A stretch of 64,000 nucleotides of DNA, from positions 2,058,270-2,122,269 of the forward strand of contig NC_015666.1 of NCBI RefSeq assembly GCF_000217715.1. The letters are read 5' to 3'. Source of the stretch: Halopiger xanaduensis SH-6 (GTDB lineage Archaea > Halobacteriota > Halobacteria > Halobacteriales > Natrialbaceae). A model generated the notes under the pieces. It had not been told where the DNA came from, did no database searches, and was given only the letters and a program-made list of their open reading frames with translations. The position numbers and the translations under genes are program-made. Below, piece after piece: positions 55,172 through 60,086 of the stretch (the stretch's first letter is position 1; each line of letters begins with the position of its first letter).

Positions 55172-56473
55172 ATGATCGCCATCGCTGGCTCGAAAGGCGG
55201 CTGTGGCAAGTCCACGGTCACGCTGGGCCTCTCGACCGCGTTCGCCAGGGGAGAGCCTCTGACCCCGGCGATCGCGATCGACGCCGACCGGCAGCTACCG
55301 AACCTGCACGTCATGACCGATCGGGACCGGGAGCCGACGCTCGCCGCCCTCGAGCGGGGAGTGACGCTGAAAGAGATCGCACAGGAGCATCCGTGCGAAT
55401 CGACGGTCGGGATCGTTTCCGCACCGAAACCGTCGGATGCCTTCGAGTTCGACTCCCTCGCCGATCACGCCGATCTCGAGGGGACGCAGGTGTTGCTCGA
55501 CTGCCCCGCCGGCGCCGGCCCGGACCTCGTCGAGCCGCTCCGGAGCGCCGACGGCGTGATCGTCGTCGCCGGCGATTCCGAACGAAGCCTCGAGGCCGCG
55601 GAGACGACGATCGACGTGGCGCGGCGACTCGGCGTGCCGGTCTACGGCGCCGTCCTGAACCGGCGATCAGCGGTGCCGGACCGCGCGGCCGAGTGGCGCG
55701 GCGTGCCGATACTGGGTTGCGTTCCCGACCGCCCGTCGCCGCTGGCGAACGACGAGGTCGCGGCGGCGTTCGACGACATCGTCGAGCGGCTGCGCGCACA
55801 GTCCCCGCGCGAGCGGGCGCCGCCGACGACCGGCGGCGATCGGATTCCCGTCGGCGCAGACGCCCTCGACCGGCACCTCGAGGGCGGTCTCCCCGCGGGC
55901 TCGGTCGTCGCGCTCGTCGCCGATCCCGCGAGTCAGGCCGAGCGGCTGCTCTACCGGGCGACCGAACTCCGCGGCACGCTGTACCTCTCGACGGCGCAGT
56001 CGCGGGAAACGGTGCGGCGCGCGATCGAGACGACCGCGGCCGACGCCGGCGAACCGACGATTCGACGCGTCGCGGGCGACGACGCCCTCGAGGAGGCGAC
56101 CGCGCTGGTCGAGAACCTCCCGGACGCGGCCACGCTGATCGTGGATCCGGTCAACGAACTCGAGCGACGGGAACGATCGGCGTACGTCTCGTTTCTCGAT
56201 ACGCTGTCCGAGCGGCTGGCCGAAACGGGCGGCCTCGCGATCCTCCACTGTCTGGACCTCGACGACCCCGCCAATCGGGCGGCGACGCTGCGGGCCGCCG
56301 ACGCCGTGTTCGAACTCGAGACGGTCGGCTCCGGCCTCGAGAGCGACGTCGGCCACGCCGTCTCGGTGACCAAGTATCGCCCGGACGCCGACGCGATCGG
56401 TACGGTTCCGATCGATTTCGGCGCCGTGAACGCGGGCGCGGGGCCGATCGAGTCCCCGTCGAATGCCGACTGA
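55172..56473 (+). CDS. MinD/ParA-type ATPase fused to a P-loop-less RecA/KaiC-like domain
   Basis: 433 residues. Domain 1 (1-210): deviant Walker A SKGGCGKSTVTLG with signature Lys8 and Lys13, VLLDCPAGAGPDLVEPLRSA (Walker B/switch) and VYGAVLNRRS. Domain 2 (about 221-420) resembles a RAD55/KaiC core: LDRHLEGGLPAGSVVALVAD, TLIVDPVNELERRE (Walker B-like), AILHCLDLDDPANRA. At the P-loop place it has ADPASQAE (250-257), without the GKT/S, so domain 2 probably cannot hydrolyse ATP. MIAIAGSKGG at the start makes ATG 55172 certain. First gene of a five-gene operon with TrkA-C membrane proteins and a second MinD. Confidence 0.88.
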   Translation: MIAIAGSKGGCGKSTVTLGLSTAFARGEPLTPAIAIDADRQLPNLHVMTDRDREPTLAALERGVTLKEIAQEHPCESTVGIVSAPKPSDAFEFDSLADHADLEGTQVLLDCPAGAGPDLVEPLRSADGVIVVAGDSERSLEAAETTIDVARRLGVPVYGAVLNRRSAVPDRAAEWRGVPILGCVPDRPSPLANDEVAAAFDDIVERLRAQSPRERAPPTTGGDRIPVGADALDRHLEGGLPAGSVVALVADPASQAERLLYRATELRGTLYLSTAQSRETVRRAIETTAADAGEPTIRRVAGDDALEEATALVENLPDAATLIVDPVNELERRERSAYVSFLDTLSERLAETGGLAILHCLDLDDPANRAATLRAADAVFELETVGSGLESDVGHAVSVTKYRPDADAIGTVPIDFGAVNAGAGPIESPSNAD

Positions 56474-56492
56474 GGTGAGACGAGGTGAGCCA

Positions 56493-57764
56493 ATGATCGA
56501 TCTGCCGTACGAGTCGCTGCTCGGCATCGCGTACGGGTTGCTGTTCGGCTTCGGTCCGGCGCTGCTCGCCGGGTTCACAGCGATCGCCGTCGGAATCGGA
56601 ACCGATCGTTCCCTCCCCCTCGCTGCCGGGCTCGCCACGGTTCCGATCGCGGTCGGAACGGGCGTCGTCGTCAGACTCTTCGACCCGAGCGCCGGCCTCG
56701 AGCACGGCCCTCGTGTCGCGATGGCGGCGACCATCGCAGGTGCCCTCGGCATCGTCGTGGTCGCCCAGGGGGATCGGATCGCGACCGAACTCCCGCGAGA
56801 CCGGGCGGTGCCGATCGTGCGCGGGACCGCGCTGTCGGCGGACGCGATCGACGCCGTCGACGCGGTGGGACAGGTAACGATCCGATCCGCGGGCGCAATC
56901 CGCGAGTTCGACGGCTATCCGGAACTGTCCCCGGCACTGCGGACGGCCCTCGAAGAGGGCGCCTGGCGCTTCCCCGCGGATCTGCAACTGTCGGAACTCG
57001 AGCGACGGCTCGAACAACGGCTCCGAGCGACGCACGAACTGTCGAAGATCGACGTCGCGATCGACGGGCGCGGCCGCGCGACGATCGCCGCCGCGCCGCC
57101 GACGAAGAGCGTCGCGACGTCGCTCTCGGATGGCGCGCGGGCCGTCACCGTCTCCGGATTGCTTCCGACCGGCATCGAATCAGGTGATCGTGTTGCGATC
57201 GGTGTCGTCTCTGGCGGCAGTGACGGTGACGGGTCCGCCGTCACCGCGACTCTCGAGGGCGACGTCCTCGCGGTTTGTCGTTCGGAGTCGGCCGAGGACG
57301 GTGCGTCGAACGCCCGTTCCTCGTCTCGGTCGACCGCCTCCCGCGCTGCGGACGCCGGGTTCGAGGGCGGTCCGGGACGGCTCACGGTGCGTGTCGCGGC
57401 GAGCGACGCCGGCCGATTACTCGGCGCCGACCGCTATCGGATCGCCGTCCTCCCGAGCGGCGACGCGCCCGCGTTCGAGGCCGCGGCGCTTCTCGAGGAC
57501 GCCGGGCGGCCGATCACCACACTCGAGGGACGCGAGGTGCTCGAGGGCGAGGACCGCGCTGTCGATGCTGGCGAGGTACTCGGCGTTCACAGCGGGGACG
57601 AGTGGGAGTTCGTCGATGAGTACGGAGACGAGAACCGGGACGTTACCGTCGACACTGCCGATGACAACGGAGCGAGTGACGCCGATACCGATAAGATGAC
57701 TGCAGCTACGCCGACCCGCGCATTCGTCGCTACGTCTCGAGAACGCGAGGTGACCGACGGATGA
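56493..57764 (+). CDS. Membrane protein with TrkA-C-like C-terminal domains, paralogue 1
   Basis: 423 residues from ATG 56493 with a GAGGTGAG ribosome binding site at 56483-56490. Three helices (about 7-30, 35-56, 66-84) are followed by a cytoplasmic region: a segment with DGYPELSPALRTALEEGAWR and SELERRLEQRLRATHELSKI (about 145-190), and a C-terminal part with GIESGDRVAIGVV and LLGADRYRIAVLPSGD, reminiscent of RCK_C/TrkA-C ligand-binding folds. An acidic tail ends it. Same layout as the next gene, so they are paralogues. The role is unknown; TrkA-C domains bind nucleotides or ions in transport regulation. Confidence 0.7.
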   Translation: MIDLPYESLLGIAYGLLFGFGPALLAGFTAIAVGIGTDRSLPLAAGLATVPIAVGTGVVVRLFDPSAGLEHGPRVAMAATIAGALGIVVVAQGDRIATELPRDRAVPIVRGTALSADAIDAVDAVGQVTIRSAGAIREFDGYPELSPALRTALEEGAWRFPADLQLSELERRLEQRLRATHELSKIDVAIDGRGRATIAAAPPTKSVATSLSDGARAVTVSGLLPTGIESGDRVAIGVVSGGSDGDGSAVTATLEGDVLAVCRSESAEDGASNARSSSRSTASRAADAGFEGGPGRLTVRVAASDAGRLLGADRYRIAVLPSGDAPAFEAAALLEDAGRPITTLEGREVLEGEDRAVDAGEVLGVHSGDEWEFVDEYGDENRDVTVDTADDNGASDADTDKMTAATPTRAFVATSREREVTDG

Positions 57765-58999
57765 TCGACGCCGCGGTCTACGCCGAGTTGCTGCGGCAGG
57801 CGTCGGTCGGCAGTACGGGACTGGGGCTGCTGTCGGCCGTCGTCGCCGGCCTCGTCGCGGCGGGTTACCGGCGGGTGACGACTCGAGCGCCGCCCGCCGG
57901 CGTCGCGGTCGGCATCGGGCTGTCTGCGGCGGCCGGCTACCTCTCGTACACCGTCTTCGCTTCGGGCGCACTGTTCGAGGGGATTCCCCTCGAGCATCGT
58001 GCGAGCGCGGGCTATCTGCTCGCGACGTTCGCGGTCGCCGGCGTGGCCGGCACGGCCGGCGGGCGATTCGGCGATCGAATCGCTCGACAGGTGTTGGATA
58101 TCGACCGAATCGACGCGAACGGCGAACCCGCGTCGATCGTTCGCGCCGCTCGGCTCGCCGTCGCCCTCGAGTTGCCCGGGACGATCGACGATGCGGACGG
58201 CTACCGGCCGGTCGATTCCTCGGTACGCCGGGCACTCGCCGGGACGGTAATCGAAGTCCCACACGACTCGTCGATCTCCGAGCGACGCGACCGGATCGAG
58301 CGCCACCTCGAGCGCGACTACGATCTCGATTATGCGACCGTGACCATGGCTGCTGACGGGAGCGTCGAACGGGTTCGCGTCGGCCGGCGGGAGCCTGGGC
58401 TTGGATCGTTGCTGCCGCCATCGACCGTCGCCGTCGCGATCCGGACGGATCCACTGCCGGACGCGAGCGTCGGCGATCCGGTCGAAATCTGGACGTCGGA
58501 GTCGCGAGAACGAGGACGAACGACGGACGACGAACGCGAGCGAGAACGGCGACGTGATCAGGATCAGGCGCAAGAACGACTCGTCGCGACGGGAACGCTT
58601 CGGGCCTCGACCGGGTCCGTCGCCACCGTTCTCGTCGACGCCGGTCGCGCTCGCGACCTCGCGGCCGACGAACGGTACCGGCTCGTCGCACATCCCGACG
58701 AGACGACCGACGGCTACGAGTTCGCCGCGGCGGTTCGCCGGGCCGACGAGACGGTCACGACGCTGACCGTCGAACCCGGCGGCTCGCTCGTCGGCGAGTT
58801 CGTCGGCTGGCTCCCCGGCCGCGTGCTCGTGCTCGAGCGCGACGGCGACCGGCAGCCGCTGCCTCCGGATCGGCGGACGCTCGAGGCGGGGGACGAATGC
58901 TGGCTGCTAGCGTCGCCGGCCGAGTTGGCTGCGCTCGAGGCCGAGACGGGCGATACTGCGACGAGTGTGGAATCGGAAACGGGTGAGAGAGCGTGGTAA
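57761..58999 (+). CDS. Membrane protein with TrkA-C-like C-terminal domains, paralogue 2
   Basis: 412 residues, starting inside the stop of paralogue 1 (ATGA overlap). Helices at about 18-38, 43-64 and 80-98 precede a cytoplasmic region that aligns by eye with paralogue 1: ADGYRPVDSSVRRALAGTVI and SERRDRIERHLERDYDLDYA, then GDPVEIWTSE and a C-terminal TVEPGGSLVGEFVGWLPGRV. The latter resembles TrkA-C folds. The last 10 codons overlap the next gene by seven bases. Confidence 0.7.
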   Translation: MIDAAVYAELLRQASVGSTGLGLLSAVVAGLVAAGYRRVTTRAPPAGVAVGIGLSAAAGYLSYTVFASGALFEGIPLEHRASAGYLLATFAVAGVAGTAGGRFGDRIARQVLDIDRIDANGEPASIVRAARLAVALELPGTIDDADGYRPVDSSVRRALAGTVIEVPHDSSISERRDRIERHLERDYDLDYATVTMAADGSVERVRVGRREPGLGSLLPPSTVAVAIRTDPLPDASVGDPVEIWTSESRERGRTTDDERERERRRDQDQAQERLVATGTLRASTGSVATVLVDAGRARDLAADERYRLVAHPDETTDGYEFAAAVRRADETVTTLTVEPGGSLVGEFVGWLPGRVLVLERDGDRQPLPPDRRTLEAGDECWLLASPAELAALEAETGDTATSVESETGERAW

Positions 59000-59406
59000 C
59001 GATCGACGCGACCTGCGAGCGGACGAACGGCGTCACGCGCGTCCGAATCGTCGTCGCGAACACGCGCGCGACGCCCCAGCGCGTTCGCCTCCGCTGCCGT
59101 CTCGAGGGCCCACTCTGGATCCCGCGGCGCGACGGCATCGCCGATCCTCGGTGGGACGGCGATTGCTGGACCGAGACGATCCGACCGGACCGTCGCCGCG
59201 GGATCGGTGTTGCGAGTCCGGCACCGCCGACGGAGCCGCTCGTCGAGGTCGTCTCGAGCGAACGCTGTGAATCCGACACGATCGGCCGCTCGGACGACGT
59301 CGCGCTCGCCGAACTCGACGACTGGCAGCCGACGCGCGAGGTGCTCGGTCTCGAGCGCGAGCGCGAGCGGGCGTACGACGGGGACGAGCCTGACCCCGAG
59401 CCATGA
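58993..59406 (+). CDS. Small protein of unknown function in the MinD/TrkA-C operon
   Basis: 137 residues from GTG 58993, overlapping the previous gene by seven bases. An immunoglobulin-like beta pattern, ANTRATPQRVRLRCRLEGPL followed by WIPRRDGIADPRWDGDCWTE, precedes an acidic helical end with REVLGLERERERAYDGDE. Alternating hydrophobic strands suggest a beta-sandwich adaptor. No known family was recognised, and the stop overlaps the second MinD by four bases. Confidence 0.65.
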   Translation: MVTIDATCERTNGVTRVRIVVANTRATPQRVRLRCRLEGPLWIPRRDGIADPRWDGDCWTETIRPDRRRGIGVASPAPPTEPLVEVVSSERCESDTIGRSDDVALAELDDWQPTREVLGLERERERAYDGDEPDPEP

Positions 59407-60086
59407 TCGTCGCCGTCGCCGGCGGAAAGGGCGGCGTCGGCAAGTCGACGACCGCGTGGAACCTCGGCCGCGAACTCGACGCCGTCGTCGTCGACGGCGA
59501 TCTTGCGGTACCGGATCTTCCGTCCGGACCCGACGCGGGCCCGGATCTCCACGACGTGCTCGCCGGCCGCGCGGATCCGCTTGAGGCGGTCGCAGACGCC
59601 GGTCCGGTATCGGTTCTGCCTTCCGGCCGAACCCTTTCGGGTGCCCGCGCATCGTCGCTCGAGGCGCTTCCATCGGTGCTCGACCGGCTCGAGCGACGGT
59701 GGGATCACGTCGTCGTCGACTGTCCGGCGGGGCTCGCGCGCGACGTCGGCGTCGAACTGGGGTGTGCCGATCTCGCGGTACTCGTGACGACGCCCTCGCG
59801 GGCGGCGCTGGTCGACGCGATTCGGACCAGCGACCTCGTGGCTTCGCTCGAGACGCCGCTCGGGGCGGCGGTTCTCAACAAAGCGGACCGCGACACCCAC
59901 AGCGACCTCGCCGATCGGCTTGGCCGGCGGCTCGGCGTCGACGTGACGCTCGTCGCGGAGCAGGCCGCGGTCGCCGACGCACAGGCGCGGTGGCAACCCG
60001 TTCGCGACCATCGACCGGACGCGCAGGCGGTCGACGCCTACCGGGCAGTTGCCGATCGACTCGAGCGCGCGAGCGAACCGTCGTGA
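59403..60086 (+). CDS. MinD/ParA-type ATPase
   Basis: 227 residues. Deviant Walker A at the start: VAGGKGGVGKSTTAWNLGRE. VVVDGDLAVPDLPSG is the switch region and HVVVDCPAGLARDVGVELGC Walker B. The C-terminus lacks the clear amphipathic membrane-targeting helix of bacterial MinD, ending in AVADRLERASEPS, so membrane contact may come from the operon's membrane proteins. Last gene of the operon. A second MinD in the same unit suggests a heteromeric pair. Confidence 0.87.
   Translation: MIVAVAGGKGGVGKSTTAWNLGRELDAVVVDGDLAVPDLPSGPDAGPDLHDVLAGRADPLEAVADAGPVSVLPSGRTLSGARASSLEALPSVLDRLERRWDHVVVDCPAGLARDVGVELGCADLAVLVTTPSRAALVDAIRTSDLVASLETPLGAAVLNKADRDTHSDLADRLGRRLGVDVTLVAEQAAVADAQARWQPVRDHRPDAQAVDAYRAVADRLERASEPS

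Follow-up and report, generated by a model that had tools for sequence, protein, structure and literature searches.

A five-gene haloarchaeal cassette of two MinD-type ATPases, two adaptor-like domains and an RCK_C-type membrane pair

The window analysed here is a 64,000-nucleotide stretch of Halopiger xanaduensis SH-6 (RefSeq assembly GCF_000217715.1, contig NC_015666.1, positions 2,058,270 to 2,122,269 of the forward strand). At window positions 55172-60086 it contains five real, tightly packed + strand genes, designated A to E, in a haloarchaeal genome of 4.36 Mb. Together these genes form a conserved, co-inherited and transferable unit of two MinD-type ATPases with intact motifs, two adaptor-like domains and an RCK_C membrane pair. 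A, B-C and D-E are three once-separate modules that have been joined into one transcription unit and are inherited together. We read the five genes as one functional unit in which two MinD-type ATP switches would act on an RCK-type B-C membrane sensor or effector, and assign this reading a probability of roughly 0.45. The genes are as follows.

Gene A, 55172..56473, + strand: 433 amino acids; MinD-type ATPase (about residues 1-210) fused to DUF7125 (residues 224-404)
Gene B, 56493..57764, + strand: 423 amino acids; membrane paralogue 1 with transmembrane (TM)-like segments 8-38, 41-65 and 72-94 (hydropathy) and a large cytosolic part
Gene C, 57761..58999, + strand: 412 amino acids; membrane paralogue 2 with N-terminal helices 4-40, 48-68 and 80-111, followed by predicted alpha/beta cytosolic domains and a predicted C-terminal RCK_C (TrkA-C) domain (AlphaFold2 model, Foldseek)
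Gene D, 58993..59406, + strand: 137 amino acids, GTG start; DUF7857, modelled as an Ig-like beta sandwich (residues 2-91) with two C-terminal helices
Gene E, 59403..60086, + strand: 227 amino acids; MinD-type ATPase, putative counterpart of Haloferax volcanii MinD1 (HVO_0225) by synteny

As described in the initial annotation of this DNA, three junctions overlap by 4-7 bases (B/C, 4 bp; C/D, 7 bp; D/E, 4 bp), and the first gap, A/B, is 19 bp and carries GAGGTGAG directly 5' of the B start. All five genes are arranged in the window as one transcription unit; a scan for bacterial-type promoters and terminators was uninformative, the models being bacterial and the host archaeal. A defence-system identity was dropped, as PADLOC gave no match.

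Conservation, co-occurrence and transfer of the block

The identical five-gene order was found in 11 other loci, with gaps of ≤45 bp and the same 4 bp D/E overlap; because all five frames are open, 46-74% identical and in the same order across these loci, the block is not a product of chance. Its carriers include Natronoglomus mannanivorans, Halopiger goleimassiliensis, Salinadaptatus halalkaliphilus and a Natrialbaceae metagenome-assembled genome. In the window the block is flanked upstream by cobalamin genes (by reading of the open reading frames, ORFs) and downstream by an aldo-keto-reductase-like ORF. Cobalamin genes stand upstream in most of the loci and are absent at two of them (L042 and L047), so this context is not what keeps the block together.

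Outside the block-bearing group the three modules are separate, as MinD3-DUF7125, B-C type and DUF7857-MinD1. Within Natrialbaceae and some further families, cassette versions cluster in three or more arrangements; the orders observed include A> <E<D<C<B (G058, G161) and B>C>A> <E<D (G050, G079, G089), and in other genomes A> <E<D stands without B-C alongside, the pair being 10-19 kb off or unlinked. The initial annotation had held that its proposal would fail if the genes occurred mostly apart elsewhere. This is the case for the parent families across Halobacteria, which lie apart as three modules, and not for the cassette-type copies, which cluster or co-occur.

Co-occurrence was assessed in 59 genomes of family f1 (taken as Natrialbaceae), each scored for fused A, cassette-type B-C and D-E, with B-C of one genome (G085) scored by match score and not by tree placement. 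Fused A and B-C were both present in 26 genomes and both missing in 28, with A alone in three and B-C alone in two (Fisher 3e-11; 6e-6 with linked B-C excluded). Independent pairs taken on an rpoA1 DNA tree all pointed in the same direction, at ~8:0 for A with B-C (p 0.008), 10:0 for A with D-E (p 0.002) and 9:0 for B-C with D-E (p 0.004).

One genome of another family (G141, family f7) carries a block (L047, contig C2) whose A, C and E all fall, in their respective trees, inside the clade of Natrialbaceae blocks; this genome also keeps a native DUF7857-MinD pair. Likewise, G058 and G161 have a TFB-linked D-E alongside the cassette D-E. The nested block, together with native or TFB-linked D-E beside cassette copies, indicates that the block behaves as a portable cassette, and on its tree position it moved intact to the family of G141. 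These are quick trees with SH-aLRT (approximate likelihood ratio test) support only, and one row of the E tree, L145, is faulty (branch 7.88). A remnant in G064 (L268:5411-6393), in which the MinD domain of A (58% identical) is joined directly to the latter half of E (50%) and B, C and D are gone, is consistent with loss as a unit.

The functional link between the MinDs and the membrane pair that had been proposed from the window is supported by conservation of the operon, by recurrent clustering in differing arrangements, by co-occurrence and by transfer as a block. Adjacency that reflects only chance or shared regulation, with the genes hitchhiking together, is very unlikely: the three modules are indeed far apart in most Halobacteria and cobalamin genes usually adjoin the block, but there are several distinct arrangements, unlinked copies co-occur (the 6e-6 subset above), joint loss is repeated, A is a fusion and the junctions overlap.

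The ATPases and their adaptor-like domains

The MinD folds initially assigned to A and E were upheld by profile searches and conserved ATPase motifs. Protein A matches DUF7125 at 138.7 bits (Pfam cut-off 29.1) and CbiA at 38.9 bits, and has a deviant Walker A motif (KGGCGKS) and a Walker B motif (VLLDCPAG); among 55 A homologues, KGGxGK[ST] with the signature lysine is present in 51 and the narrow D-x-P-A-G Walker B pattern was detected in just 20. Protein E carries KGGVGKS and VVVDCPAG, with KGGxGK[ST] in 54/57 and D-x-P-A-G in 51/57 of its homologues. Against the archaeal MinD model TIGR01969 (minD_arch), A scores 54.6 bits and E 118.4 bits; as both fall below the curated cut-off of 201.75, we name them 'MinD-type' and do not file them under that model. 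The nearest solved structures to E are the archaeal MinDs 1g3q and 1hyq, and cassette E forms one clade (SH-aLRT 96). A C-terminal amphipathic membrane-targeting helix was seen neither in A nor in E, which ends DAYRAVADRLERASEPS, by inspection and hydropathy with no dedicated predictor run.

DUF7125 is a RecA/KaiC relative, and its standalone members also match KaiC. The initial view of this half of A as a dead RecA-like domain holds: the canonical P-loop GxxxxGK[ST] following LDRxLxGG is found in 0/55 A homologues, and a PASQxE-type loop replaces it in 46/55. In other genomes MinD and DUF7125 are two adjacent genes, in that order, in 20/20 split loci examined, and the A fusion has a single origin in the tree. 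The source genome also encodes a standalone DUF7125 protein (L181:6258-6881), which shares ~52% identity with the corresponding half of A.

Protein D matches DUF7857 at 77.2 bits (cut-off 27). Its AlphaFold2 model is an Ig-like sandwich, for which a fold search against the PDB gave weak Ig-like matches, none confident, and neither a signal peptide nor a TM segment was seen. DUF7857 was found in 174/234 genomes, and the H. volcanii control has it too. Outside the block-bearing group, gene order is DUF7857 then MinD and the pair is usually convergent with a TFB gene, a neighbour conserved in several haloarchaeal families (L172:3799-5389, L135, L138, L139, L149, L270).

Like bacterial MinCDE and ParA/MipZ, the block combines deviant Walker A ATPases with partner proteins; it differs in having no MinC, MinE or ParB homologue, and in having two MinDs, two unrelated adaptors and an RCK-type membrane pair. 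SIMIBI ATPases such as Get3, Mrp/NubP and CooC frequently act in membrane insertion or in the loading of metals, and A and E might accordingly be assembly or maturation ATPases that build or load B-C, with no spatial positioning. The scores of both proteins below the archaeal MinD cut-off, the lack of a MinE or MinC partner nearby and the NUBPL/ParA family, which Pfam also scores, speak for such a role. The archaeal MinDs nearest to E speak against it, as does the lack of a visible CxxC metal-site motif in E, and two different ATPases with two adaptors would be much for a single maturation job; on balance we hold an assembly role to be rather unlikely.

The membrane pair and the proposed mechanism

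B and C had been described as paralogous TrkA-C-like membrane proteins. Their paralogy was confirmed by cross-matches reaching ~1e-16, and the TrkA-C relationship is supported through C; B has no significant Pfam match and is homologous to C and to a channel-linked protein, B2. C itself scores 18.2 bits against PF02080 (TrkA-C; cut-off 27), and its near homologue C2 scores 28.1 bits, above the cut-off. The AlphaFold2 model of C has a mean predicted local distance difference test score (pLDDT) of 84.8 and a predicted template modelling score (pTM) of 0.39, the low pTM making the domain arrangement unreliable. The best solved folds found by Foldseek are KhtT with c-di-AMP (cyclic di-AMP; 8e-5), MthK (4e-4) and the RCK_C of BusR, and on this model C is predicted to bear a C-terminal RCK_C fold. 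KhtT, MthK and BusR share this fold with the C-terminus of C, and KhtT and BusR bind c-di-AMP; they are soluble subunits or channel-attached, whereas C has its own TM helices.

B2 and C2 form a pair that is conserved in haloarchaea and is, in most loci examined, divergent from a Kch-type K+ channel gene whose product has an ion channel and TrkA_N without TrkA_C. The pair shares with B-C full-length homology, gene order and the layout of TM helices and RCK_C; cassette B-C differs in forming its own clade (cassette C is one clade apart from the C2 type, SH-aLRT 96) and in having no channel gene adjoining. A Kch gene with a divergent membrane pair, one member of which has TrkA_C, is seen at L041:8640-12544 and L182-L200.

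The block could on these grounds be a K+-channel regulatory module, in which B-C would act on a Kch-type channel by gating or tuning it, and the MinDs would signal energy state to that channel. The place of the sister pair next to Kch suits this idea, as does the complementary make-up of the two (TrkA_N without TrkA_C in Kch, TrkA_C above cut-off in C2). Since no channel gene lies inside or adjoins the five-gene block, and Kch persists in genomes where no B-C was found, we consider it unlikely. A role of B-C as an obligate Kch subunit was rejected on the same persistence.

For the preferred reading, MinD switches acting on an RCK-type membrane sensor, the most likely mechanism that we infer is the following. 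B and C would form a membrane-anchored hetero-oligomer, and their cytosolic RCK_C domains would sense ion or nucleotide state, with K+ or c-di-AMP as obvious candidates. The two MinD domains, in A and in E, would serve as ATP-dependent switches: in the ATP-bound state A and E may dock on B-C through the adaptors DUF7125 and DUF7857, and hydrolysis would release them. The ATP cycle would thereby set the membrane position or state of the B-C complex, whose role most likely concerns the ionic or osmotic balance of the cell. H. volcanii requires c-di-AMP under standard conditions, and the nucleotide influences its osmoregulation (PMC6741144); neither that paper nor PMC8646023 mentions an RCK or TrkA receptor. 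A wider proposal, which we regard as doubtful, is that the block represents a new archaeal membrane system in which two MinD-type ATPases and two adaptors control an RCK_C receptor, possibly a c-di-AMP/K+ sensor, giving MinD1 and MinD3 a function across haloarchaea.

Several observations weigh against a single functional unit of MinD switches and membrane sensor. The unlinked B-C subset leaves 4 independent pairs, too few for significance. Three genomes (G137, G057, G087) carry fused A and D-E, still beside TFB, with no cassette B-C, and one (G144) has B-C but neither A nor D-E. Kch is present in 59/59 genomes, including 13 where no B-C homologue was found. In a motility assay, an H. volcanii quadruple minD deletion equalled the minD2/minD4 double deletion (PMC11621097).

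Correspondence to the MinD paralogues of Haloferax volcanii

The H. volcanii paralogues MinD1, MinD2, MinD3 and MinD4 are HVO_0225, HVO_0595, HVO_1634 and HVO_0322, respectively, and HVO_0225 adjoins HVO_0226 (TFB) (PMC7714728, PMC13286277). Residues K16 and D117 of MinD2 were mutated in an H. volcanii study, in which MinD2 forms one operon with HVO_0596, a conserved downstream partner of undescribed role (PMC11588486). Genus g40 has four chromosomal MinD classes. The class with a long C-terminal extension is MinD4; the 286-amino-acid class, with K16, D117 and a gene directly downstream, is of MinD2 type; and the E-type gene adjoins a TFB gene, like HVO_0225 beside HVO_0226. On the G078 chromosome the E-type, MinD4, MinD2-type and A-type genes lie at 0, 72, 334 and 1402 kb, an order and spacing collinear with the locus numbers HVO_0225, 0322, 0595 and 1634. 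From the TFB neighbour and this collinearity, E probably corresponds by synteny to MinD1, the H. volcanii side being taken from locus numbers; by elimination and collinearity, again with H. volcanii locus numbers, the MinD domain of A probably corresponds to MinD3. The block differs from the g40 state, where MinD1 and MinD3 types are unlinked and the MinD3 type is unfused.

MinD2-HVO_0596 resembles the modules of the block in placing a MinD gene and a conserved downstream partner in one operon; it differs in the partner, as the gene next to the MinD2 type in g40 has no Pfam match and is neither DUF7125 nor DUF7857. That A is MinD2 fused to HVO_0596 was rejected, the g40 K16/D117 type with its own downstream gene being a different MinD class.

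A full-text literature search, with many subscription journals outside its coverage, returned no description of MinD with TrkA-C/RCK in haloarchaea or archaea, nor of DUF7125 in such a system. MinD1 and MinD3 are conserved in haloarchaea, and the two Haloferax paralogues are without a reported phenotype. Through the block the two are tied together and gain named partners, namely DUF7857, DUF7125 and the RCK-type membrane pair; in genome comparisons these parts share retention, loss and transfer, which makes them a first set of partners to test for the orphans. What the two MinDs do can thereby be put to the test in H. volcanii, a species expected to have all the native modules, lying separately. 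If the proposed mechanism is true, it would connect MinD biology with the sensing of ions or c-di-AMP. Two points go beyond the initial annotation: the probable match of A to MinD3 and of E to MinD1, the Haloferax orphans, and the kinship of B-C as sisters of a K+-channel-linked pair.

The g40 MinD2-type gene stands beside ORFs that resemble cobalamin-salvage genes by eye (L170:5691-11206), and the window block stands beside cbi genes, which may be coincidence.

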